Shown: positions 6,785-20,348 of the stretch, piece after piece | Layout of the letters: each line of letters begins with the position of its first letter | How positions within the stretch are numbered: position 1 is the stretch's first letter | Assembly (NCBI RefSeq): GCF_000024265.1 | Contig: NC_013204.1 | Coordinates: 2,546,501 to 2,610,500 of the forward strand | Length of the DNA: 64,000 nucleotides | Direction of reading: 5' to 3' | Origin: Eggerthella lenta DSM 2243 | GTDB taxonomy: Bacteria > Actinomycetota > Coriobacteriia > Coriobacteriales > Eggerthellaceae | Program-made: the position numbers and the translations under genes | The notes under the pieces: model-generated | The model's database searches: none | Told to the model about the DNA's origin: nothing | Seen by the model: the letters and a program-made list of their open reading frames with translations, nothing else

Positions 6785-9700
6785 TTACTCGTTCGACTTG
6801 AGGCTTTCCACCATGTCGATGCGGCGCAACTTGCCGCGCATGGCCAGCATCACGAGCACGGTGAACAGCATGGTCAGCAGAAACGCCAACAGGAAGCTGG
6901 TCGGGTGTATGGCACGGCCGAACATGATCTGGTCCACCTCGGCCGTGACCACGACGAAGCCTTCCATCCACACGCCCAACACGAGACCGACCGCGCAGCC
7001 GATGGCCGCCAAGAGGAATATCTCGCGGAAGATGTAAGCGTTCATCTCGCGCGGCGTGAAGCCGAGCACCTTGAGGGTGGCGATCTCGCGCATGCGCTCG
7101 GTGATGTTGATGTTCGTGAGGTTGTACAGCACGATGAACGCGAGCGCCGCCGCCGCGGTGACCAGCACCACGACGATCATGTTCACGCTCGACATCATGT
7201 CGCGGTACGCGTCGATGGTCTCGTCGTTGTACGCCACGGTCTTCACGCCTCCTGCGGCCAGAAGGTCGTTCGAGAACTGCACGCGCAAGTCGGGGTCGGA
7301 CGTGGTGACGGCCAGCACGGTGCGGTAGTCGGGAGCCTTGCCCATAAGCTGCTCGTAGAGGGCAGGACCCATATAGGCGTAATGGTACACGTAGTTCTCG
7401 ACGATGCCCGTGACCGTGGCCTCGTATGACGTGCCGGTCGCGTTGCCGATGGCATCCTGCTCGGTCAGCGTGACGGCATCGCCTGCGCGCACGCCCAACT
7501 CCGCCGCCAGCTTCTCGGTGAGCACGAGGCCGTCGTCGTCCAGCTTCACCGGATGATGGCCGACGCGGGTGTTCAAGGCCACGAAGCGGTCGAACGATGC
7601 CGGATCCTCGGGCACGACCAGCTCCATGCGCTTGTCTTGCTCGTCCGGCCCGCCGGCCAGCATGTTCTGCCGCATGACCAGCGTATGCGCGGTGACGAGC
7701 GAGCCGTCGTCGAGCAGGTCGTCGATACGCCGCTGCTCTTCGCTTGATAGGTCGTCCGCCAGCGTAACGACGGCGTTGTACTTCGTGATCTCGCCGAACT
7801 GCTTGTCGATTATATCGTTGATGGCGTTGGACAACCCGAGACCCGTCAGCAAGAGCGCCGTGCAGCCCGCGATGCCGATGACCGTCATGACGAAGCGCTT
7901 CTTGTAGCGGAACAGGTTGCGGAACGTCACTTTCCACGAGAACGAGAGATGCCGCCACAGCGGACCGATGCGTTCGAGTACTATGCGCTTGCCCGCCTTC
8001 GGAGCGCGCGGCAGCATGAGCTGCGCCGGGCGCTCGCGCAAGGTGGCGGCGACGGCGGCCCAGGTGGCGAACAGCGTGACGCCGACGCCGAGCCCGGCTG
8101 CAAGCCCGGCGAACCCAGGATCGACGGGCAGCGGCAGCGGCAGCTCGGGCACGAAGTATATGATGCCGTAGGCCTTCATGATGACGGCGGGCAGCACTTG
8201 GGACAGCGCGAGGATGCCCAGAATGCTGCCGATCCCACTGGCCGCGGCTGCGTATGCGAGGTATTTGGAGGCGATGCGCGTGCGACGGTAGCCAAGCGCC
8301 TTGAACGTGCCGATGAGAGCACGCTCCTCCTCCACCATGCGCGTCATGGTAGTGAGGGCCACGAGAGCCGCCACGAGGAAGAAGATGAACGGGAACACCG
8401 CGGCGATGCTGTCCACGCGGTCGGCGTCCGCCTCGAAGCTGGCTGCACCGTAGTTCGCCGTGCGGTCCATGACCAGCCATTCGGGGCGCTCCAGATCGTC
8501 GATCTGCTTCTGGGCGTCGTCGAGACGACACTCGGCGTCCGCCAGCTGCGCATCGGCGTCGGATTTCTTCTGCTCGTATTCGGCGAGGCCGCTGTCGTAG
8601 TCGGCGCGACCTTGTTCGAGCTGGGCGCGGCCGTCCTGCAGCCGAGAGGCGGCGTCGTCGAGCTGCTGCTGAGCCGCGGCGATCTGCGCGTCGGCTTGCG
8701 AGCGCGATGAGGCGAGATCGGCGCGCGCCTGATCAAGCTTCCGGGCGCTCGCGTCGAACTGAGCCTTCCCCCCTTCATAGGCGGCCTGCTGCTGTTCGAG
8801 CTCGACCTTGGAAGAGTCCAGGGCGTCCTGCTTGCCCTGGAGCTCGGCACGCGCTGCCTCCAGCTTGGGCTTCTGCACGTTGACGAGATCGTCGAGGGTG
8901 GCCTGGACGAGAGCCATCTGCGCCCGGAGATCCTGCTGTTGCGCTTTGAGGGCATCTTGCTCGGCGCGCAGTTCGGCGATCTTCTGCGCGTCCTTGTCGG
9001 GATCGAGCTGCTTGATCTGCTCCTCCAGCGCGTCGATGCCCTTCTGGATCCGGTCGACGCCGGCCGCTGCGTCGGCGACGCCGGCCTGCGCCCGAGTTAT
9101 GCCCGCGTCAAGCTCGTCGGATCGCCGCTGCCAATCGCCCCACGCCGCCGCGAGGGCGTCGGCGCCCTGTTGCCACTGAGCCCGGGCCGCTTGGAGCTGC
9201 CCTGCGGCATCATCCAACTGCGGGCGCTGCGCGTCGAGCTGCGCCTGCCCGTCGGCTATCTGCCGTTCGGCATCGTCCAGCTGCGCCTGAGCACTCGCAC
9301 GCTGGCTCGCCAGCTCGGACGCGCCGCTGTCGTAGGCCGCCTGGCCGTCGGCCAGCTCCTGCTCGCTTGCGGCGATCGTCGCGGCGGCATCGTCGAGCTG
9401 GCGCTTCGCATCGTCCAGTTGCGACTGCGCGTCGGCCCTCTCGCCCTCGTAGTCGGCGCGCTTCTCGTCGAGCTCCTTCTGCGCATCGGACTTCAGCTGA
9501 TCGACACGTGCCTGCTCGCGCTCGGGCGCAAGCGCCTTGATGCGATCCGCCACTTCGTCTACGAGCCGCTGGTAGGCGTCGCTCGACGCGCGTTCGTTCG
9601 CCGCCCCGCGCACCGTGAGGTACGCCTCGGTATAGGGAAGATCGGCCGAGAAGTCGCTCTCGGGCACGTACATATACTGTTGGATGGAGCCCGAACCCAG

Positions 9701-10318
9701 CGTGGTCTCGCCCATGCTCGAAGACGTTGCGTAGTACGGAGCGTTCACAAAGCCCGTCACCGTGTACGTGCGCGTGACGAGGGTCTGGTCCACGTCCTGC
9801 ACGCCCTCGGTGATGGTCAGCGTGTCGCCGACGGCGATGGCGTCGTTCTCCACGAGGTTGGCCGACAGCACGCACTCCCCCGTCTTCTGCGGCCACGAAC
9901 CCCGGACGAGGAGGGGACGGTTCAGATAGTCGGGGTCGTCGGAACGCGCATGCACGCCGTCGGAGGTGTCGCTCGTGCGCGCCGCATCGGGCAGCGAATG
10001 CACGCGCGTGGCGTACTGTTCGCCGTCGATGGACGCCATGACGTCGGTCTCGCGCGCGGGCATCACGGCCTCGACTCCCTCGACGTGGCGCAGCACCGCG
10101 ATGTCGTCGTCGGTGAGGCCGAGGGTCGAAAGCACGCGGATGTCCATGAGCGACGTGCCGTCGAAGTACTCGTCGGCCGCCAGCTTCATATCGGGCGCGG
10201 TCATGCGCAGGCCGGCGTAGAAGCCCGTCCCCAGCGCGACGATGGCCGCGATGGCCAGGAAGCGCCCGAGCGAGTGGGTGATCGAACGCAGGGTCTCAGT
10301 GTTGAACGCGCTTTTCAC
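6785..10318 (-). CDS. FtsX-type ABC transporter permease with a long internal coiled coil
   Basis: This 1177-aa membrane protein has an N-terminal transmembrane helix at about 15-37 and an extracytoplasmic domain to about 250. A very long Ala/Gln/Asp/Leu-rich coiled coil follows at about 265-615, with dozens of AQLDDA-like heptads. Then comes a first FtsX domain (about 635-770, four-helix permease), a second extracytoplasmic domain and a second FtsX domain (about 1050-1165). Two FtsX cores in one chain resemble MacB/LolE-like mechanotransmission permeases. The ATPase gene ends 10 bp upstream, so the two form one transporter. The substrate is unknown; export or cell-envelope signalling is more likely than import. 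Confidence 0.85.
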   Translation of the reverse strand: MKSAFNTETLRSITHSLGRFLAIAAIVALGTGFYAGLRMTAPDMKLAADEYFDGTSLMDIRVLSTLGLTDDDIAVLRHVEGVEAVMPARETDVMASIDGEQYATRVHSLPDAARTSDTSDGVHARSDDPDYLNRPLLVRGSWPQKTGECVLSANLVENDAIAVGDTLTITEGVQDVDQTLVTRTYTVTGFVNAPYYATSSSMGETTLGSGSIQQYMYVPESDFSADLPYTEAYLTVRGAANERASSDAYQRLVDEVADRIKALAPEREQARVDQLKSDAQKELDEKRADYEGERADAQSQLDDAKRQLDDAAATIAASEQELADGQAAYDSGASELASQRASAQAQLDDAERQIADGQAQLDAQRPQLDDAAGQLQAARAQWQQGADALAAAWGDWQRRSDELDAGITRAQAGVADAAAGVDRIQKGIDALEEQIKQLDPDKDAQKIAELRAEQDALKAQQQDLRAQMALVQATLDDLVNVQKPKLEAARAELQGKQDALDSSKVELEQQQAAYEGGKAQFDASARKLDQARADLASSRSQADAQIAAAQQQLDDAASRLQDGRAQLEQGRADYDSGLAEYEQKKSDADAQLADAECRLDDAQKQIDDLERPEWLVMDRTANYGAASFEADADRVDSIAAVFPFIFFLVAALVALTTMTRMVEEERALIGTFKALGYRRTRIASKYLAYAAAASGIGSILGILALSQVLPAVIMKAYGIIYFVPELPLPLPVDPGFAGLAAGLGVGVTLFATWAAVAATLRERPAQLMLPRAPKAGKRIVLERIGPLWRHLSFSWKVTFRNLFRYKKRFVMTVIGIAGCTALLLTGLGLSNAINDIIDKQFGEITKYNAVVTLADDLSSEEQRRIDDLLDDGSLVTAHTLVMRQNMLAGGPDEQDKRMELVVPEDPASFDRFVALNTRVGHHPVKLDDDGLVLTEKLAAELGVRAGDAVTLTEQDAIGNATGTSYEATVTGIVENYVYHYAYMGPALYEQLMGKAPDYRTVLAVTTSDPDLRVQFSNDLLAAGGVKTVAYNDETIDAYRDMMSSVNMIVVVLVTAAAALAFIVLYNLTNINITERMREIATLKVLGFTPREMNAYIFREIFLLAAIGCAVGLVLGVWMEGFVVVTAEVDQIMFGRAIHPTSFLLAFLLTMLFTVLVMLAMRGKLRRIDMVESLKSNE

Positions 10319-10328
10319 GACGCGCCGG

Positions 10329-11030
10329 CTACCACTCGATCGCCTCGGCGGAAACAGGCGCTTCGTTCACTTCGACGCCCGCAACGCGTCCTTCGCGGAT
10401 GTGGATCACCCGGTCGGCGATGGCGGTGAACGCGGAGTTGTGCGTGATGAGCACCACCGTCTTGCCCGTGTCGAAGCACGTGTCCTGCAACAGCTTCAGG
10501 ATGGCCTTGCCCGTGCGGTAATCGAGCGCGCCGGTGGGCTCGTCGCACAGCAGGAGCTTAGGGTTCTTCGCCAGCGCACGGGCGATGGCCACGCGCTGCT
10601 GCTCGCCGCCGGAAAGCTGCGCCGGGAAGTTGTCCAGGCGATGGCCCAGGCCCACCTGCTTGAGCACGGTTCCCGCATCGAGCGGATCCTTGCAGATCTG
10701 GCTGGCAAGCTCCACGTTCTCAAGCGCCGTGAGGTTCTGCACGAGATTGTAGAACTGGAAGACGAACCCGATATCGTAGCGACGGTAGTACGTGAGCTCC
10801 TTCTCGGAGAATGCGCTGATCTCGCGACCGTCGAGCATGATGGTTCCCGACGAGCAGGCGTCCATCCCGCCCAACATGTTCAAAAGCGTCGTCTTGCCCG
10901 CGCCCGAGGGGCCCACGACCACGACGAGCTCGCCGCGCTCGATGTCGAAGGTCATGCCGTCGACGGCAGCCACCTCCACCTCGCCCATGCGGTACACCTT
11001 GCGCACGTCGCGAAACTCCACGAACGCCAT
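10329..11030 (-). CDS. ABC transporter ATPase, LolD/MacB class
   Basis: This 233-aa ATPase has Walker A GPSGAGKT (40-47), signature [15 protein letters not shown] and Walker [13 protein letters not shown], all intact. It belongs to the LolD/FtsE/MacB class that powers FtsX-type permeases. It lies directly upstream of the 1177-aa permease in the same operon. The start MAFVEFRDV has a GAAGGGC-type SD. Confidence 0.92.
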
Positions 11031-11359: not shown

Positions 11360-12064
11360 ATGAATGAGACGGTTCTCATAGTCGAAGACGATTCGGATAT
11401 TATCGAAATCCTGAGCCTCTATCTATGCGGTAGCGACTACCAAGTCGAAACCGCTGCGAACGGAAAGCTGGGACTCGAGCTGCTTGAGCGCAAGTCCCCT
11501 TCCGTCATACTCGTGGATTTGATGATGCCCGAAATGAACGGGTTTGACTTCATCAAGGAAGCTCGCTCAGTTTCGAACGCGCCCATCATCATCATTTCGG
11601 CGCGCAGTCAGCCCACCGACAAGATGCTCGGCTTGGATTTGGGTGCCGACGGGTACATCACGAAGCCGTTCGACCCGATCGAAGTGCTGGCCTACATTCG
11701 CGCGGTTCTCAGACGCTGCAATGCATTGTCCGCAAGCGGCCCAAGCAACATTTCACCAGACGGTTCGGTCGTGCGCATGGGCGCCATAGAATTCGACAAA
11801 GAGTCCTTGATCGTTCGGAAGAACAGCAACGTGGTTTCCTTTACGGCCTCAGAATTGAAGATATTCAGCAAACTGTTCTCCTCGCCCGGCCGCGTGTACA
11901 CGAAGGCGCAATTGTACGAACTGATCAGCGCTTCCTCGCATGGCGGAGGCGAGGACAGCATCATGGTTCACATATCCAACATCCGCTCTAAGATAGAAGA
12001 CGATCCCAACAATCCGGCGCATATCGTTACGGTTCGTGGATTGGGATATCGTTTTGAGGGCTGA
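11360..12064 (+). CDS. OmpR-family response regulator
   Basis: This 234-aa protein has a receiver domain (1-120) with acidic pocket EDD at 9-11, phospho-acceptor Asp53 in VDLMMPEMNG, and Lys in FDPIEV-preceding YITKPF. A winged-helix Trans_reg_C domain follows (130-234), ending GLGYRFEG. It overlaps the kinase gene and precedes the Dlt-like cluster on the same strand. A 13-bp motif shared by the two downstream promoters (13658 and 14653) is a candidate binding site. SD GAAAGG lies upstream of the ATG. Confidence 0.95.
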   Translation: MNETVLIVEDDSDIIEILSLYLCGSDYQVETAANGKLGLELLERKSPSVILVDLMMPEMNGFDFIKEARSVSNAPIIIISARSQPTDKMLGLDLGADGYITKPFDPIEVLAYIRAVLRRCNALSASGPSNISPDGSVVRMGAIEFDKESLIVRKNSNVVSFTASELKIFSKLFSSPGRVYTKAQLYELISASSHGGGEDSIMVHISNIRSKIEDDPNNPAHIVTVRGLGYRFEG

Positions 12065-13646
12065 TGCGACATCGGTGAAGCTGGGGGTGGAGTCGCTGCT
12101 TTCCAGCTTGGCGTTTCGGTGCATGTCGATCGTGCTTGTTTATGCGGTCTTGATCATGGGCCTGTTTTCGGCTGTCGGCTACCTCGCGGACTCGCGCCTC
12201 AACAGCGCGTTTCCTTCCATCGACGATCTGGAGGAAAACAGGGTCGCGCTGGAAAACGACTCTTTCAACGAATTGAGAAACTCAATACCGCCATCTGCTC
12301 AGATGGTGATATTCGATCAGAACGGGAACCGCCTCTATGCCAGCGATGACGATGTCGCCAAATCGATCGACGCCAACGACCTGGAAATCATCAACGGAAC
12401 CGAAGAAGATCAGGTGTTCTACGAGGTTTTGCAGCGCTTCGATGCCCGCTACGGCACCGTGTATGAAATAAACTTATGCGGAATGAGCGGGATCGGGAGT
12501 TCGAAGATAGTCTTATCCTCATGCGTTTGCAAGCTTGATGGAACGATCGTCGAAGGCGACCTGTTCGCCGGTCGAGAATCGCTGAGCAAGCGGGAGCTTT
12601 CCCTGATAAACGGGGAATTCAGCGCAAACAAATCTATCCAGAAGCTCGAATACGTTACCGTCGACAATCAGCCCCGCACCCTTGTTTTTATCTCCTCGAA
12701 TGTGAGCGAAGCAACATACGATGAGCTGATCAGCCAAAACGGGATGATTTGGCTTTCTTCTATCCCTGTCGCGGTTGCCTTCACGGCAATTGCCGCCGTG
12801 GTGCTCGTGAGAATGATACGCAGGGCGGCAAAGCCGCTCGACGCTGCCATTACCGCATGCAAGGAAGGCGGCGAAAGCCCCGACGGCATGCATCGCGTTC
12901 CAGCTGAGCTGGTGCCGACATACGATAATTTTCTCGAGCTGATGGAGGAGCTTAAGGCCGCGCAAAACGACAAGCAGCGCATCGTTTCGGATATTTCGCA
13001 TGATCTGAAAACGCCGTTGACGGTGATAAGGGGGTATGCGCAGGCATTTGAGGACGGATGCGTGCCGCCCGAAAAAGCCGGAGAGTATCTGAGGGCAATG
13101 AAGGAAAAAACGGACGAAGCCTCCCAGCTCATCGATTCGCTGTTTCTTTACGCCAAAACGAACCACCCCTCGTACATCCCTCAGCTTGTGCGGATGGACG
13201 TTTGCGAAGCGGTTCGTCGCATTGCGGTGGAAATGCTTCCGACTATCGAACAGCGCGCCTGCCGCCTTGACGCGGCAATCCCCGACGATCCCATTTGGGT
13301 GCGCGCCGACGGCTCGTTGCTGGCGCGCGTGCTTGGCAACCTGATCAACAATGCATGCGTGCATAATCCTGGCGGCGTTACCGTTCGATTGACCTGCAAA
13401 CGCACTGAAAGCGAGGCGGTGATCGCCGTAGCGGATGACGGCGCGGGAATTCCCGAATCCATACGCGACCATGTGTTCGAACCGTTTGTGACCAGCAATG
13501 ACGCACGCGAATCGGGCAAGGGCACCGGCTTGGGGCTTTCCATTGCCAAACGTTTCATAGACTTGCAGGGTGGAACGATTGCCGTTTCAGCTCAGCCCGA
13601 AGAAGACTTCGAAACCGAGATCGTCGTGACTCTTCCGCTGGCATAG
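12036..13646 (+). CDS. Membrane sensor histidine kinase
   Basis: This kinase is 536 aa if the GTG at 12036 is used. A transmembrane helix lies at about 28-50, then a roughly 190-residue extracytoplasmic sensor, a second helix near 243-265 and a HAMP-like linker. HisKA follows with SDISHDLKTPLTV and a HATPase_c domain with NLINNACVHNPGG, DDGAGIPE and GKGTGLGLSIAKRF. The start overlaps the regulator by 29 bp. In-frame GTGs at 12075 and 12087 are alternatives, and none has a convincing SD, so translation is probably coupled. The sensor domain was not recognised. Confidence 0.9.
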   Translation: MDWDIVLRADATSVKLGVESLLSSLAFRCMSIVLVYAVLIMGLFSAVGYLADSRLNSAFPSIDDLEENRVALENDSFNELRNSIPPSAQMVIFDQNGNRLYASDDDVAKSIDANDLEIINGTEEDQVFYEVLQRFDARYGTVYEINLCGMSGIGSSKIVLSSCVCKLDGTIVEGDLFAGRESLSKRELSLINGEFSANKSIQKLEYVTVDNQPRTLVFISSNVSEATYDELISQNGMIWLSSIPVAVAFTAIAAVVLVRMIRRAAKPLDAAITACKEGGESPDGMHRVPAELVPTYDNFLELMEELKAAQNDKQRIVSDISHDLKTPLTVIRGYAQAFEDGCVPPEKAGEYLRAMKEKTDEASQLIDSLFLYAKTNHPSYIPQLVRMDVCEAVRRIAVEMLPTIEQRACRLDAAIPDDPIWVRADGSLLARVLGNLINNACVHNPGGVTVRLTCKRTESEAVIAVADDGAGIPESIRDHVFEPFVTSNDARESGKGTGLGLSIAKRFIDLQGGTIAVSAQPEEDFETEIVVTLPLA

Positions 13647-13741: not shown

Positions 13742-14647
13742 ATGAAGAATCCTCTGATACGCTGCGTCGCGCTGCTTGCGCTGCTGCTTGGCCACATCGG
13801 ACTGGCGGGATGCGCCGCAACCCAGGAAAAGCATGCTGAAAACGATTCGATCGACAACGAATTGGCGGACGCGAGATACGATGAGCCCGAAGAGCGCGTT
13901 TTGGTCTCAGACGATCGGAGCAACGGAAAAGCGTCGAAGGAGATAGTTTGCTGGGGCGACAGCATGACCGAAGGAGCCGGTCGCGATCCAGCCGTGATCG
14001 CGACCGGCGACGGCGTCTTCGATGCCAGCTATCTGTCGTATCCTGACGTACTTCAAAAACTGACGGGTATGACCACCTGCAATTTCGGCGTGTCGGGCGC
14101 GACATCCGAAGAGATCGGCATTATGCAAGGAGCCATCGAGGCCGATGACGAGGACGAGCGCCTCTTCATCGATGAGGAAGTGGCCGAGCTGGCAAAACAG
14201 CATACGGGAACGATACTGGTGCTGGAAATGGGAAGCAACGGCGGCTGGGATGGCGATTACGCAACGCTCATAGAGCAGTACCATGCGATCATCGAAAACT
14301 CCGGATGCGAGAACTTCATCATCATCGGCGACACCGACGACCCCGGAACTTCGTTCGGCGATCCAAGTCAAGAGGCTTTCGAGCCGGGCGAGACCGGCCG
14401 TCAAACCGAGTGGGAGGCCACGCTGACCGCAGAATTCGGCGACCGCTTTATCAACATGCGCCAGTTTCTCATCGATAACGGGTTGGCGATCGCAGGGCTT
14501 ACGCCCACCCGAGAAGATGCAGAAGATGCTGCCGTAGGCTGCATATCCCTGCAGCTACGCTCAGACTGGACCCATTTGAATTCTTACGGATACTACGCAA
14601 AGGCGCAGGCGGTGTACCAGAGAGGCGTTCAATTGGGCTATTGGTAA
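13742..14647 (+). CDS. SGNH/GDSL-family esterase lipoprotein
   Basis: This 301-aa protein has a lipoprotein signal peptide (hydrophobic 8-22, lipobox LAGC with Cys23). An SGNH hydrolase domain follows, with the GDSMTEGAG block near residue 64 (catalytic Ser), an Asn/Gly-containing MGSNGG block and DWTHLN near the C-terminus supplying Asp and His. It should act on the outer face of the membrane, probably as an esterase or O-acyl transferase. It sits between the two-component genes and the Dlt-like operon, which suggests it trims or transfers the same envelope substituent. Substrate unknown. Confidence 0.85.
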   Translation: MKNPLIRCVALLALLLGHIGLAGCAATQEKHAENDSIDNELADARYDEPEERVLVSDDRSNGKASKEIVCWGDSMTEGAGRDPAVIATGDGVFDASYLSYPDVLQKLTGMTTCNFGVSGATSEEIGIMQGAIEADDEDERLFIDEEVAELAKQHTGTILVLEMGSNGGWDGDYATLIEQYHAIIENSGCENFIIIGDTDDPGTSFGDPSQEAFEPGETGRQTEWEATLTAEFGDRFINMRQFLIDNGLAIAGLTPTREDAEDAAVGCISLQLRSDWTHLNSYGYYAKAQAVYQRGVQLGYW

Positions 14648-14652
14648 ACCCA

Positions 14653-14665
14653 AAGAAACCTTTAG
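14653..14665 (+). promoter_or_regulatory. Candidate regulator site AAGAAACCTTTAG before the Dlt-like operon
   Basis: The site is one mismatch from the motif at 13658. TTTAG recurs 11 bp apart here (14661-14665 and 14672-14676), as expected of direct-repeat binding by an OmpR-type regulator. It lies 73 bp before the adenylation gene. Confidence 0.45.
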
Positions 14666-14691
14666 AAAGCGTTTAGGAAACGAAAAGGTTG

Positions 14692-14730
14692 CTCTCTTAC
14701 TGTGGAACACGAGGCAAATACGTAAGAGAG
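14692..14730 (+). promoter_or_regulatory. Hairpin overlapping the SD of the adenylation gene
   Basis: Perfect 9-base arms CTCTCTTAC (14692-14700) and GTAAGAGAG (14722-14730) enclose 21 nt. The 3' arm contains the AGAGAGG ribosome-binding site of the ATG at 14738, so the folded form would hide the SD. Translational control is inference. Confidence 0.5.
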
Positions 14731-14737
14731 GTTTCCC

Positions 14738-16279
14738 ATGAAATCCAAGAGCAATGTGCTGGAGTATCTGGCCGAGGCCGCGAAGCAGCGGCCCGGCGAT
14801 ACGGCCGTTGTCGACGAGTTCGGCAACTATACCTACAAGCAGTTGCAGGACGATAGCGCAGCGTACGGCGCAGCGCTATCCGAATACGACGTGGCAAATC
14901 GGGGCGTGGTCATCATGGTGGAAAAATGCTATGACACACTTGCCATCATGCTGGGCACGCTGTTCGCATCCGGATATTACGTGCCGGTCGATCCATCGGT
15001 TCCCCCCGTGCGACTTGCGCACATCGTCGCGACATTGGGAAGCCCGCTCTTGGTGGCCGACGAGGAAGCCCTGCGGGGCCTTCAACTCGAAGACGCGTGC
15101 AAGATCGTTTCCTTGGAGGAGCTGCATAGCCAGCGCGCCGGGATACAGCAGCGCGACGCGGTCGAGCCGGCATCGCTTTCGATCGATCCGGCATACGTTC
15201 TGTTCACCTCCGGATCAACGGGCGTCCCCAAAGGCGTAGTTGTCAGCCATGGAGCCATCATCAGCTTCATCGACGAATTCGTTTCGGAATTCGAATTCGA
15301 CCGCAGCGATCGGTTCGCAAACCAAGCGCCATTCGACTTCGACGTGTCCGTCAAAGATATTTTCGGAAGCTTGGCGGTGGGAGCGACGCTCGTCATCGTG
15401 CCGCGTCGCTTGTTCATGCAGCCGAAAGCCTTGGTTGAGTTTCTGGACGAGCAGCGCGTGACCGTGATGGTTTGAGCGGTCGCGGCTTTGTGCATGGTGA
15501 ACACATTTCGCGCAATTACAAGCGATTCGCTTACCACGGTTCGAAAAGTGCTGTTCAGCGGCGAGGTAATGCCACTTGCCCACTTGAAATCCCTGCTTGC
15601 GTCTTTGCCGGACGCCGAGTTCGTCAACCTGTACGGCCCAACCGAGATCACCTGCAACTGCCTGTACCATCGCGTCGACCGCGCAAAAGACGGCGCCGCC
15701 GAGCTTCCCCTGGGAAAAGCACTCGGGCACTGCGAAGTCCTAGCGGTCGACGAGGAGGGACGGCGCATCGTCGAGCCGGGCCAGAAAGGCGAGATCATCG
15801 TGCGAGGACCCTCGTTGGCGTTGGGTTATATCGGCAATCGAGAAGCGACGGAAAAGGCGTTTGCGCCCAATCCCCTCAATTCCCTTTACGGCGAGCGCGT
15901 GTACCGCACGGGAGACAGCGCGATGCTGACGGACGAAGGCGATCTGGTCTTTTGCGGTCGCAAAGACAATCAGATCAAGTACCGAGGGCACCGAATCGAG
16001 CTGGAAGAGATCGACAAGGCGTTCGAAGGGTTCTCCGACGTCGACAGGTGCCGATGCGCCTTCGATTCCAAAAAGAACCGGCTATGCGCGTTCTACGAAG
16101 GAACGGCTTGCGAGAAAGAGCTTCCCGGTCGGGCGGCATCATTGCTTCCCGCTTTCATGAGGCCGACGCGCATCGCGAAGGTGCCGAGCATGCCGCTGAA
16201 CAAGAACGGGAAGGTGGACCGTGCGATGCTCCTGGAATCGCACGGCGAACCGGCGAAGCGCGAGAGGGCTGATCGATGA
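14738..16279 (+). pseudogene. DltA-like amino-acid adenylating enzyme interrupted by one in-frame TGA
   Basis: Read through one stop, this is a 513-residue AMP-binding enzyme, near the roughly 505 aa of DltA. The first part (245 aa) has the P-loop LFTSGSTGVPKGVV. The second part has NLYGPTE, YRTGD, GRKDNQIKYRGHRIELEEID and NKNGKVDR, so all core motifs are present. The stop at 15473-15475 (codon 246) falls in VMV-stop-AVAAL, where relatives carry Trp, so one TGG-to-TGA change explains it and no frameshift is needed. It should adenylate an amino acid and load it on the carrier protein encoded downstream. The 3' end overlaps the decarboxylase start by 4 bp. It may be a recent null allele, a sequencing error, or read through. 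Confidence 0.8.
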
Positions 16280-17514
16280 TGATAGACGACGCAACGCTGC
16301 AAAACGCGCTGGATGCATGCCCGACGCCTTTGTACCTTTTCGACCATCAGGTTCTTAACGACCGAATCACCCGGTTGCGGGCATCGCTCCCCTCTCGCAT
16401 CAAGCTCTGCTATGCGATGAAGGCGAACCCCTTCATCGTGCTGGAGGCGTCGGCTCTGGCGGATTGCGTAGAAGCATGCTCGCCGGGCGAGGTGCTCATC
16501 TGCGCGAACGCAGGCGTGCCGTTCGAGAAGATCGTGCTTTCGGGCGTGTGGAAGGATCGCCGCTGCTTGGACGATCTGTTCCAAGCGGATCGCATCCCCC
16601 ATAGATTCACCATCGAGTCTTCCCAACAGTTGAAAGACCTGGTCGTACTCGCTAACGCGTATCGCAGGAGGGTGAACGTTCTTTTCAGACTGAGCAGCGA
16701 AAACCAATTCGGCGTAGACTCCGCCACGCTGAAAGAGCTGATTGCCGGCTGCAAAGACGACCCGTTCATCAGCATCCAGGGTATCCAGTACTACTCGGGC
16801 ACGCAGAAAACGTCGCTCAAGAAGCTTGATAGAGAGTTGAACAAGCTGCACCGCATCGTGGCCGAAGTGGAAGCCGCTTGCTCGGTGAAGCTGAACGAGA
16901 TCGAATACGGCCCCGGGCTTCCCGTCGAGTACTTCGACGAGGACGAGGAGCGGGCTCGCAGCGCGCAGGACGAACCCGTTGCCGAGCTTGCAACGCTGCT
17001 GGACGGTTTCCCTTTCGAGGGGGACGTCGTCCTCGAGCTGGGACGCAGCATCGCGGCTGATTGCGGAGCGTATCTGACCAGCGTCGTCGACGTCAAAACG
17101 ACGAGCGGGCAAAACTACGCGATCGTCGACGGCGGCATGCATCAGATTTCGTACTACGGGCATTCGATGGCCATGAAGTCCCCGGTTTTCAGGAAGGTCG
17201 GCGCAACGGCCGGCGCTGCGCAGCCTTGGAACATCTGCGGAGCGCTTTGCACGGTCAACGACATCCTGGCCAAGCAAGCGCCGATCGTCGATTTGTCCGT
17301 GGGAGACGTGCTTGCGTTCTCTCGGGCAGGCGCCTACTGCGCAACGGAGGGTCGGGCGCTGTTTTTAAGCCGGGATCTTCCGTCGGTGGTCGTGCGCGAC
17401 GTTTCGGGAAATATGCGCATTGCTCGGCATCGGCTGGAAACGGCCTCGTTCAATTCATCGAACGGGCCGCAGGATAGATCGACGGAACAGGACGAAAAGG
17501 AGAACGGACTATGA
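16276..17514 (+). CDS. Fold-type III PLP-dependent decarboxylase (DapDC/BtrK-like)
   Basis: This 412-aa enzyme has the alanine-racemase-like barrel with the PLP lysine in YAMKAN (Lys49) and QYYSGTQ near residue 170. Then come GPGLPVEYF, VDGGMHQ and the C-terminal CGALCTVNDIL and GAYC blocks. The VDGGMH and CxxLCT-x-x-D patterns recall BtrK, which decarboxylates glutamate while it is bound to a carrier protein, as well as diaminopimelate/ornithine decarboxylases. It lies between adenylation and carrier genes with 4-bp ATGA overlaps on both sides, so it most likely acts on the carrier-bound amino acid or supplies its precursor. The substrate is not known. Confidence 0.85.
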   Translation: MMIDDATLQNALDACPTPLYLFDHQVLNDRITRLRASLPSRIKLCYAMKANPFIVLEASALADCVEACSPGEVLICANAGVPFEKIVLSGVWKDRRCLDDLFQADRIPHRFTIESSQQLKDLVVLANAYRRRVNVLFRLSSENQFGVDSATLKELIAGCKDDPFISIQGIQYYSGTQKTSLKKLDRELNKLHRIVAEVEAACSVKLNEIEYGPGLPVEYFDEDEERARSAQDEPVAELATLLDGFPFEGDVVLELGRSIAADCGAYLTSVVDVKTTSGQNYAIVDGGMHQISYYGHSMAMKSPVFRKVGATAGAAQPWNICGALCTVNDILAKQAPIVDLSVGDVLAFSRAGAYCATEGRALFLSRDLPSVVVRDVSGNMRIARHRLETASFNSSNGPQDRSTEQDEKENGL

Positions 17515-17747
17515 AAAATCAAGTTATCGACATTCTCGAAGACATCAACCCGGGCGTGGATCATGAGGCGCGCGTCGACCTCGTCGATTCGCGCTGCATC
17601 GATTCGCTGACGATGATCGCCTTCGTGGCCGAACTCGAAGATGCATTCGACGTCGAGATACCCCCCGTCGAGATCGTGCCCGACAATTTCAACTCGGTTG
17701 AGGCCGTATGCTCCCTGATGGCGCGCCTGCAAGCAGAGCAGGCTTAG
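17511..17747 (+). CDS. Acyl/aminoacyl carrier protein (DltC-like)
   Basis: This 78-aa carrier protein has the phosphopantetheine attachment motif DSL with Ser32 (RCIDSLTMIAF). Its helices are acidic, and its size matches DltC (about 78 aa). It should hold the activated amino acid as a thioester for the MBOAT protein. It overlaps the decarboxylase by 4 bp. The holo-ACP synthase at 49192-49767 could add its cofactor. Confidence 0.9.
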   Translation: MKNQVIDILEDINPGVDHEARVDLVDSRCIDSLTMIAFVAELEDAFDVEIPPVEIVPDNFNSVEAVCSLMARLQAEQA

Positions 17748-17781
17748 CCTGCGCGAATCGCTCGAGTAGGGAATCATTTTA

Positions 17782-19371
17782 ATGACGTCGTACTATTCCG
17801 CCCTTTTCTTCACGGCCTTTTTGCCGATTACGGTCATGTTGTACGGCATGGCGCCAAGGCGCTTTAGGTGGGCGGTGCTCCTGCTGGCCAGCTACGGCTT
17901 CTTCTTCGCGCTCAGCGGCGCGCTTATCGCGTTCGTCGCCCTGTCGACGGCAGTCGTGTACGCGTGCGCCCGCATGATGGGCGCCAACCTTGCAGAGAAG
18001 AACCGGCAACTGGCGACAGCCAGCTCGGGCAAACGCGAGATACGCGAGGCCTGCAAGCGGAAGAACCGCCGTATCGTCTTCGCGGCCGTCGTCGCCAATA
18101 TCGGCATTCTGGCCGTCCTGAAATACTCGGGGTTCTTCGGGCTGTCGCTGGCTTCCACGCTGGCGGCGTTCGGCATTTCGATCGACCTTTCCATCCCCAG
18201 CTTCGCATTGCCCATCGGGATATCGTTTTACACGTTGATGGCCGTTTCATACGTTGTGGATGTGTATCGCGAACGCACGAAGGCCGACAAGAACCTTGGG
18301 CACGTGGCGCTGTTCCTGGCGTTTTTCCCAGGAATCATGGAAGGACCGCTCAGCAGATACAACGACGTTGCGCCCAGCCTTATCGCGGGCGAACCGCTTA
18401 ATCGAAAGAACCTGTACGCAGGAACCTTGCGCATTATGTGGGGCATGGCGAAGAAGATCATCGTCGCGGACCGGCTGAACGCGTTCGTGAAGCCGGTGTT
18501 CGACAATTACGGTTCGTACGACGGAGGCGTCATAGCCTTAGCTGCGATCCTGTACACCATTCAGCTGTACTGCGATTTCTCAGGAACGATGGACGTCGCC
18601 CTGGGCATGGGCCGCGTGTTCAACGTAACGCTGCCCGAAAACTTCAGGCAGCCGTTCTTCTCCCGCACCGCCTCCGAATTCTGGCAACGTTGGCATATCA
18701 CGCTGGGCCTGTGGTTCAAAGACTACGTGTACTACCCTATCTCGTTGTCCAAGCCATGCAAGATGCTGACGACCAAGGCGCGCAAGCGTTTCGGAAACAG
18801 ATACGGTCCGCTTCTGGCAAGCTCCGTTGCGCTGTTCTGCGTGTGGATCGGCAACGGCTTGTGGCATGGCGCCGGCAGCCAGTACCTCTTCTTCGGTTTG
18901 TACTACTTCGTCCTGATCATGGCGGGCGGCTTGATCGAGCCTCCATGCGCGCGTGCGGCGCAGCACTTCGGCATCGACCGCAATAGCTGGCCTTATCGAA
19001 CGTTCCAGACCGTCCGGACGCTGGCGATCATCTTCGTCGGCGAGCTGTTCTTTCGCTCCAACTCGCTTGAGGCGGGGCTTGCCATGATGGGACGGATTGC
19101 GGGCGATTTCACTATCGAAGCCTTTACGACGGGATCGGCGTTGCAAATCGGATTCGGCGTTGGCGACGGCCTCATCGTAACCTTGTTCATGATGCTGGTT
19201 CTCGCAGTAGGCGTAGCGAAGGAGCGGGGCTGCAATTTGTGGGAGTGGGCGACTGCGCAAAGCGCGCTCCTGAGATGGAGCCTCGTGATTCTTCTGTTCG
19301 TGGGAACCGTGACGTTCGGAGCTTACGGCCTTGGCTACACGCCGGTCGACCCGATGTACGCGCAGTTTTAG
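17782..19371 (+). CDS. MBOAT-family membrane acyltransferase (DltB/AlgI-like)
   Basis: This 529-aa polytopic protein has about ten hydrophobic segments and the MBOAT core. The active-site His lies in GNGLWHGAG near residue 365, and RFWQRWHIT-like FWQRWHITLGLWFKDYVYYP is upstream. The length is closer to AlgI than to DltB (about 400 aa). It should move the aminoacyl group from the carrier protein across the membrane to an envelope acceptor. The SD AGGGA lies before the ATG, with a 34-bp gap after the carrier gene. Confidence 0.92.
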   Translation: MTSYYSALFFTAFLPITVMLYGMAPRRFRWAVLLLASYGFFFALSGALIAFVALSTAVVYACARMMGANLAEKNRQLATASSGKREIREACKRKNRRIVFAAVVANIGILAVLKYSGFFGLSLASTLAAFGISIDLSIPSFALPIGISFYTLMAVSYVVDVYRERTKADKNLGHVALFLAFFPGIMEGPLSRYNDVAPSLIAGEPLNRKNLYAGTLRIMWGMAKKIIVADRLNAFVKPVFDNYGSYDGGVIALAAILYTIQLYCDFSGTMDVALGMGRVFNVTLPENFRQPFFSRTASEFWQRWHITLGLWFKDYVYYPISLSKPCKMLTTKARKRFGNRYGPLLASSVALFCVWIGNGLWHGAGSQYLFFGLYYFVLIMAGGLIEPPCARAAQHFGIDRNSWPYRTFQTVRTLAIIFVGELFFRSNSLEAGLAMMGRIAGDFTIEAFTTGSALQIGFGVGDGLIVTLFMMLVLAVGVAKERGCNLWEWATAQSALLRWSLVILLFVGTVTFGAYGLGYTPVDPMYAQF

Positions 19372-19379
19372 GAGCATGC

Positions 19380-20348
19380 ATGAGAGCAGTGAAACTACGC
19401 AGCGCCTTCAAGGTGCTTGCGACCGCGGTTTTCGTGGCGGCTGCAACGCTCGGCCTTCTTTGGGCGGTATCGAGCGTCGTCCAGCCGAAAAACAACCAGA
19501 AGGAATTCGGCCAGGTTTCAGAAGCCGCCAACGGGATCTTCGGCGAGCCGGGCCGCTCCCTCGATGCGATATTCATCGGCGACAGCGAGGCGTACAGCTC
19601 GTTCTCCCCGTTGCAGATGTGGGAAGAGCATGGCTTCACCTCGTACGTGAGCGCTACGTCGGGTCAGCGATTGACGTACGGGTACCGATTGCTGGAAAAA
19701 GCGCTTCGTTCCCAAAAGCCCAAGGTCGTCGTATTCGAAACGAACTCCATCTACTCGCCGATCAAGCCGGATGACGCAGTTCTGAGCCTTTTCCAGAACA
19801 AGCTGCCCGTCTTCGAATACCACGATCGATGGAAGAGCCTGGATGCGCAAGACTTCTTAGGGAAGCCTTCGGCCACATGGAGCGACCCGCTGAAGGGGTT
19901 CGTCGTCAACCGCGGGGTGAATCCGGCCGACGCCGTCAATCACATGACGCCGAGCAGCGAGGCGCTGCCGGTAGACGTTGCGAACCGCCAGTACATAACC
20001 GCCATGGTCGAAGCTTGCAGAGCGAACGGCGCTACTCCCGTGTTCGTCAGCACGCCGAGCACGGTCAATTGGAACACGGCCAAACACAACGGCATGAGCG
20101 AGCTGGCCCGGGAACTCGGCGTCGACTATTACGACCTGAACGAGGGGCCCGACAAGGTTCCGATCGACTGGAGCACCGATACGCACGACAAAGGAGACCA
20201 TCTGAACTTCGACGGAGCAACCAAAGTTTCGGCTTATATGGGAAAGCTCTTATCGGAAAAGTACGGACTTCCCGACCATCGTTCGGACAGCGCCTTTGAC
20301 CGATGGAACGCATCGCTTGAAAGATACAAGCAGCAGATTGCCTCCTAG
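19380..20348 (+). CDS. Membrane-anchored SGNH protein (DltD-like role)
   Basis: This 322-aa protein has one N-terminal transmembrane helix (about 10-32) and an extracytoplasmic SGNH domain. The catalytic Ser is in IGDSEAYSSFSP near residue 72, and DHLNFDG near 278 supplies Asp/His. I chose ATG 19380 because AGGAG lies 6 nt upstream, overlapping the MBOAT stop; the frame is open further up but out of context. In alginate and teichoic-acid systems MBOAT proteins pair with SGNH partners that complete transfer, so it is the likely final transferase or editing enzyme. Confidence 0.85.
   Translation: MRAVKLRSAFKVLATAVFVAAATLGLLWAVSSVVQPKNNQKEFGQVSEAANGIFGEPGRSLDAIFIGDSEAYSSFSPLQMWEEHGFTSYVSATSGQRLTYGYRLLEKALRSQKPKVVVFETNSIYSPIKPDDAVLSLFQNKLPVFEYHDRWKSLDAQDFLGKPSATWSDPLKGFVVNRGVNPADAVNHMTPSSEALPVDVANRQYITAMVEACRANGATPVFVSTPSTVNWNTAKHNGMSELARELGVDYYDLNEGPDKVPIDWSTDTHDKGDHLNFDGATKVSAYMGKLLSEKYGLPDHRSDSAFDRWNASLERYKQQIAS

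Follow-up and report, generated by a model that had tools for sequence, protein, structure and literature searches.

Positions 2546501-2610500 of the single 3,632,260-base contig of Eggerthella lenta DSM 2243, analyzed here as one 64,000-nucleotide window, carry a widespread and coherent five-gene set, a probable and apparently unnamed surface acylation system. The set occupies window positions 14738-20348 (positions without a locus label refer to the window throughout) and encodes, all on the forward strand, an amino acid adenylation ligase, a fold-type III pyridoxal phosphate (PLP) decarboxylase, a carrier protein, a membrane-bound O-acyltransferase (MBOAT) and a membrane-anchored SGNH protein. 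As in DltABCD(X), the D-alanylation system, a ligase, a carrier, an MBOAT and an SGNH protein are joined in one operon, and the first three resemble DltA, DltC and DltB; the window operon differs in its additional decarboxylase, a recoded ligase pocket and parts that all fall below the Dlt cut-offs. An earlier note on this DNA, made from sequence alone, had placed these five genes and an SGNH lipoprotein in one operon, and all six genes were confirmed on the forward strand at 13742-20348. The 4-bp overlaps reported for most junctions were recovered at two of the four core junctions (ligase/decarboxylase and decarboxylase/carrier), the remaining two being gaps of 34 and 8 bp. The lipoprotein does not belong to the conserved set, since a BLAST match to it was obtained in only two of 80 loci.

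These loci were picked by decarboxylase sequence alone, and the best 80 of at least 570 relatives found in the collection scan were analyzed for gene content. They come from Coriobacteriia, Oscillospiraceae, Lachnospiraceae, Agathobaculum, Acetobacterium and one genome labelled Streptococcus suis. Ligase and carrier genes lie near the decarboxylase in all 80, and all five core genes are present in 78 (77 with the core alone, one with core and lipoprotein); the other two, L045 and L060, end at contig edges. Because the five genes recur in 78 of 80 loci chosen by the decarboxylase alone, their co-occurrence is not due to chance, and the cluster on which the earlier note had built its proposal is conserved elsewhere. 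Among 20 Eggerthellaceae loci, eight of them shared with the best 80 (about 92 distinct genomes are covered in total), ligase, decarboxylase and carrier occur together in 19, while L042 is cut inside the decarboxylase by a contig end. At the family level 21 of 138 genomes, and at the class level 37 of 298, contain a close relative of the decarboxylase, and the family also includes Slackia and Parvibacter loci carrying the same operon. Pairwise distance matrices of the five proteins correlate with r between 0.71 and 0.87 over 72 loci (permutation maxima 0.16-0.22); these correlations include species relatedness and therefore show joint inheritance, not function. The SGNH gene is placed before the carrier at L068, L088 and L096. 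At L070 (12241-14404) and L062 (8126-10083) the SGNH protein is present as a tandem pair after the MBOAT.

The genome labelled S. suis is the only one of 147 in its genus with a decarboxylase relative, and none occurs in the three remaining genomes of the window's genus; this distribution points to spread of the operon by horizontal transfer. No decarboxylase relative was found in the viral contigs searched, and a plasmid search returned distant relatives only (<60% identity), which were used for comparison.

Profile scores separate the system from D-alanylation. The ligase exceeds the cut-off of the general amino acid adenylation model TIGR01733 and remains below those of both DltA models (287 bits against 559.85 for TIGR01734), the MBOAT reaches 136.8 bits with TIGR04091 (DltB, cut-off 375), the carrier 21.4 with TIGR01688 (DltC, cut-off 52.35), and the DltD profile PF04914 gives no match in the window's SGNH protein, which lies outside the DltD family. 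The only PF04914 match of this genome is found in a separate, canonical-like dlt operon at 2098-2104 kb (L166, 996-5363, about 2099-2103 kb) encoding DltA, DltB, a carrier and DltD, the DltA scoring just below its cut-off (505.9 bits) and the DltD above. The S. suis-labelled genome likewise possesses its own DltA and DltD above cut-off. Since both genomes have separate dlt genes, the five-gene system is not their D-alanylation system; most other carriers of the system lack a PF04914 DltD. Overall similarity to DltA and DltB could still suggest a second D-alanylation copy with an unrelated PLP gene inside it. This is highly improbable, and a plain D-alanylation copy was rejected, in view of the sub-cut-off scores of every component, the recoded pocket, the separate dlt operon and the persistence of the decarboxylase beside the same genes across two phyla.

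The recoding of the ligase pocket was examined with the ligase protein read through an in-frame TGA discussed below. Direct alignment with the solved DltA structure 3fcc places DltA NQAPFSFDLSVMD against NQAPFDFDVSVKD of the window ligase. The A4 segment reads DFDVS[VT]KD in the window family and SFDLSVMD in DltA, and FSGE stands where DltA has FCGE, Ser replacing the Cys associated with D-Ala. The D-Ala pocket (FCGE Cys, SFDLSxM) is thus absent, with FSGE and the DFDVSVK-type segment invariant in the family. TCNC follows GPTEx (GPTEITCNC in the window) and, together with the pocket Asp, Lys and Ser, is invariant in 96 ligases. A pocket with an extra Asp and Lys appears to suit a substrate that carries an amino group as well as a carboxyl at its buried end; Asp or Glu would fit, because either of them, activated on its side chain, presents these two groups there. 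Comparison of Lys206 with adenylation domains that activate an omega-carboxyl (Aad, iso-Glu) adds little weight to this reading. VinN and BolO handle such a substrate with Asp230, Ser299 and Arg331 (PMC7756342), a pocket unlike that of the window ligase.

The decarboxylase (Schiff-base Lys K49, aromatic Y173, C325-T326..D329) contains both the VDGGMH and the LCTxxD patterns described earlier. In phylogenetic trees the dlt-linked decarboxylases form one clade (support 100/100), and the LysA clade, including this genome's own LysA, excludes them with support of 96/94 in a 49-row tree and 100/100 once long-branch rows were left out. The enzyme thus does not group with lysine or diaminopimelate (DAP) decarboxylases, a placement that the earlier note had considered. 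Phe or Tyr occupies the position of the PLP-stacking His in 99 of 99 dlt-linked enzymes, whereas LysA and siderophore enzymes keep the His; LC[TS]xxD is found, again in 99 of 99, where LysA has CESGD; and the RP motif of LysA/DAP-type enzymes is missing. A LysA, DAP or lysine decarboxylase was ruled out by the trees and by the absence of CESGD, the RP motif and the PLP-stacking His.

On the dlt-group side of the tree are BtrK of the butirosin pathway, the exosortase-associated enzymes and enzymes encoded beside ligases and carriers in Streptomyces, Rahnella and Paenibacillus. Other BtrK-side decarboxylases also adjoin ligases, and often a carrier, in unrelated clusters. BtrK is among the top sequence matches and, with an AlphaFold2 (AF2) model of the window enzyme (mean confidence, pLDDT, 86), the best PDB fold match (7ru7), SbnH and LysA scoring nearly equal. 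It shares VDGGMH, the aromatic/GTQ features, with an aromatic residue at the His position, and LCTxxD with the window decarboxylase; it acts on Glu bound to BtrI, has about 23% identity in the fold alignment, and differs from the dlt group, in which the loop following RL[TNS] is missing and GGG is mostly replaced by GPG. In a published phylogeny (PMC7857480), BtrK shares a clade with DAP decarboxylase and D-ornithine decarboxylase and with MccE, FigC and SbnH, three enzymes whose substrates are amino acid conjugates. The exosortase A-associated pair TIGR03098/TIGR03099 is similar in that the ligase adjoins a BtrK-side decarboxylase, but the window decarboxylase reaches only 171 bits against a cut-off of 478, and no MBOAT match was found at the exosortase loci examined. 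Streptomyces plasmid clusters L155 (4920-9034) and L156 (3965-7910) encode a BtrK-side decarboxylase, an adenylation enzyme and a carrier beside ectoine genes (ectA, with ectB or ectoine synthase).

We propose that these proteins carry out a surface acylation resembling Dlt, in which the acyl group would be made on the carrier. Judging from its pocket residues, the ligase would activate an amino-dicarboxylic acid at its side-chain carboxyl, most likely Asp (at the beta-carboxyl) and less likely Glu, and load the activated amino acid on the 4'-phosphopantetheine of the carrier. The PLP decarboxylase would then remove the free alpha-carboxyl of the carrier-bound amino acid, yielding a beta-alanyl or gamma-aminobutyryl (GABA) thioester. 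As suggested by an invariant C-terminal motif and by the mechanism of PatA and DltX, the MBOAT would move the acyl group across the membrane onto its own Tyr526, from which the SGNH protein could take it on its Ser and esterify a surface polymer, thereby adding positive charge. Decarboxylation on the carrier is favored because of the homology to BtrK, the gene adjacency and the precedent of VinN/VinL/VinO. VinN loads 3-methyl-Asp on VinL, where VinO decarboxylates it, the thioester being needed first, and FlvN recognizes Asp (PMC11284099). For starter units, the loading of Asp on a free carrier and its subsequent decarboxylation are described as well established, and on-carrier Asp decarboxylation has been proposed for BolO/BolC/BolN with support from gene deletion (PMC7756342). 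The vicenistatin (Vin), fluvirucin B2 (FlvN) and bolagladin (Bol) enzymes thus resemble the window system in pairing an adenylation enzyme with a stand-alone carrier, which in those pathways receives Asp or 3-methyl-Asp; they differ in feeding assembly lines, in the Vin case after addition of a second amino acid, whereas the window operon has an MBOAT/SGNH pair instead and shows no second amino acid ligase.

Loading, on-carrier decarboxylation and export, taken together, are likely, a judgment drawn from sequence comparison. The same scheme had been put forward in the earlier note, and the tree, the cluster conservation and the shuttle motif leave it the best-supported account; the GABA-like product named there is only one option, and conversion of Asp to beta-alanine is an equally good or better match. 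GABA thioesters tend to cyclize, and no protecting ligase was seen at the operon; Asp is therefore favored over Glu, the cyclization argument having moderate weight. We accordingly regard beta-alanyl as a possible, still tentative, candidate for the transferred group, and a GABA group as rather unlikely. For butirosin biosynthesis, possible protective-group chemistry is indicated by the title of Li 2005, cited in PMC7857480.

Alternatively, the decarboxylase could act on a free amino acid (Asp to beta-alanine, DAP to lysine, or another amine), with the ligase loading the product. Fold-III decarboxylases of free amino acids exist, and in another pathway the PLP decarboxylase IdnL3 forms 3-aminobutyrate in the free state, ahead of its loading (PMC11284099); moreover, the exact placement of the dlt-linked enzymes is left open by the topology test given below. 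This order of events is nevertheless improbable, given the exclusion of the enzyme from the LysA clade, the absence of the CESGD and RP motifs that recognize DAP or amines, and the location of its nearest relatives beside ligases and carriers. The invariant pocket Lys also disfavors Lys or Orn as the loaded amino acid and would have no obvious partner in beta-alanine or GABA.

Additional support for export, unavailable to the earlier note, comes from the MBOAT sequence. The catalytic His motif WHG is present in 94 of 94 homologues, and in all 94 the last six residues follow the pattern xxYAx[FY], in which the Tyr and the final aromatic residue are invariant. In DltX and PatA, the acyl group reaches the SGNH enzyme on the Tyr of a C-terminal FXYXXF motif (PMC12148441). 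The leading Phe of FXYXXF is mostly unmatched in the window family, where the first motif residue is F in 6 and P or L in 88 of the 94 homologues. Dlt employs the separate microprotein DltX for this purpose, whereas the window MBOAT bears its own Tyr motif, as do PatA and the MBOATs of other MBOAT-SGNH O-acetylation pairs. Those pairs use acyl-CoA, and MBOAT systems with a fused motif have been described without a carrier protein (PMC12148441); in the window operon family, carrier and MBOAT-fused motif occur together. Such an architecture, with a carrier-fed donor and a shuttle Tyr fused to the MBOAT, would stand between Dlt and PatA, although we hold this placement, like the envelope modification it belongs to, with slightly less than even confidence. 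The DltB of the genome's separate dlt operon ends without the shuttle motif.

The membrane SGNH protein consists of an N-terminal transmembrane helix and an SGNH fold (AF2 pLDDT 95) closer to TesA-like enzymes than to DltD. Ser69, Asp270 and His274 are invariant in an alignment of 32 homologues. A DUF362 match, present in 8 of the 32, was dismissed as a side match. The same chemistry might instead modify a glycolipid of the membrane, a protein or some secreted small molecule rather than a wall polymer. In favor of this, the recurrent operon neighbors comprise the two-component system and assorted transporters, and none of them was recognized as a glycan or teichoic acid gene. An MBOAT with a shuttle motif paired with a membrane SGNH protein is, however, the architecture of envelope polymer acylation (PMC12148441), and a non-wall acceptor therefore seems a minor prospect.

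Several points weigh against the proposed scheme. K206 would also be compatible with activation of the alpha-carboxyl, in which case it could bind a gamma-carboxyl, as known from the Glu domains of surfactin synthesis. A tree that puts the branch of the dlt group between LysA and the remaining carrier enzymes was not rejected by the approximately unbiased (AU) test (p 0.34), so that the dlt group may or may not descend from a carrier-acting enzyme; its stem is also long (2.1-2.5). What the aromatic and LCT features of the decarboxylase show is relatedness, not substrate. A divergent Eggerthellaceae variant (L034-L043), in which the MBOAT precedes the ligase and ends in FMYANF or FIYANF, a true FxYANF-type motif, yielded no SGNH partner by BLAST. 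Finally, the ligase of the present genome is interrupted, and the operon copy in this genome may be inactive.

This interruption, an in-frame TGA, was read through in the earlier note. Since every one of the 96 other ligases compared has Trp at the site of the TGA, this copy of the gene may be broken; translation would end at residue 245 and nothing would be loaded. Ligase frames are also broken at L075 (7241-8877, Parvibacter caecicola, frameshift) and at L081 (7493-9004, a Candidatus Paralachnospira metagenome-assembled genome, with TAG in place of the A3 lysine codon), so that loss of the ligase, or else assembly error, may recur. Conversely, the four other core genes are intact, the decarboxylase has no excess branch length, and the TGA could be a sequencing error or a strain-level variant. 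We put the chances of a dead operon in this genome as even, an outcome compatible with carrier-based acylation in the family as a whole.

The load-then-decarboxylate chemistry is already known. Nothing in the literature searched coupled it to a Dlt-like exporter, and searches of open-licence papers for Dlt operons with a decarboxylase, for GABA or beta-alanine on teichoic acids and for E. lenta wall polymers gave no description of the system. D-alanylation of teichoic acids is a main Gram-positive means of lowering negative surface charge and resisting cationic peptides. It is conceivable, if somewhat short of an even prospect, that the operon represents a new class of envelope modification, with beta-alanyl (or GABA) esters made on the carrier, widespread in gut Firmicutes and Coriobacteriia and able to coexist with D-alanylation. 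If so, a second, unnamed system with another amine group would operate in hundreds of species, often beside a two-component sensor, and the surface charge and host recognition of commensals would be tuned by chemistry that nobody assays. Such a group could have escaped notice because ester groups are lost in alkaline preparation. Starter-unit chemistry of assembly lines, loading and decarboxylation on a carrier, would thus have been reused for the cell surface, and the compact five-gene set suits tests of MBOAT export specificity.

Table 1 Features of the operon region in the window.
Feature	Position	Strand	Basis and remarks
Response regulator, OmpR type	11360..12064	+	Pfam Response_reg/Trans_reg_C; homologues upstream of the operon in L024, L030 and many of the 80 loci
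Sensor histidine kinase, partner of the regulator	12036..13646	+	Pfam HisKA/HATPase_c
SGNH/GDSL lipoprotein	13742..14647	+	Pfam Lipase_GDSL_2; accessory
Amino acid adenylation ligase, DltA-like scaffold, in-frame TGA inside	14738..16279	+	TIGR01733 above cut-off; DltA models below
Ligase pocket segment (A4 motif) D200-F-D202-V203-S-V-K206	15335..15355	+	Asp and Lys invariant; DFDVS[VT]KD in 96/96 other ligases
In-frame TGA, ligase residue 246	15473..15475	+	Trp in 96/96 other ligases compared
Fold-type III PLP decarboxylase	16276..17514	+	Pfam Orn_DAP_Arg_deC; trees, motif table, AF2 model
Carrier protein, 78 aa; phosphopantetheine site in C-I-DSL	17511..17747	+	Pfam PP-binding; DltC model match below cut-off
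DltB-like MBOAT, WHG catalytic His motif	17782..19371	+	Pfam MBOAT; TIGR04091 below cut-off
Predicted MBOAT C-terminal acyl-shuttle motif PMYAQF (Tyr526)	19351..19368	+	xxYAx[FY] in 94/94 homologues; function from PMC12148441
Membrane-anchored SGNH protein, DltD position	19380..20348	+	S69 of GDS, D270-x-GDH274 by alignment; AF2 model

Directly upstream of the six-gene run lie the response regulator and histidine kinase genes (11360-13646). Homologous histidine kinases are encoded near the operon in 43 of the 80 loci, mostly immediately upstream, and the regulator probably controls the operon. The SGNH lipoprotein was found only in the closest relatives (L024/L044 and L045) and may be an esterase acting on the surface group. 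Its sequence (13742-14647) resembles SGNH domains of phage tail fiber families. Divergently oriented and upstream of the two-component system, an ABC transporter (6785-11030) composed of an ATPase and a 1177-aa FtsX-like permease with a coiled-coil insert resembles antimicrobial-peptide detoxification modules.

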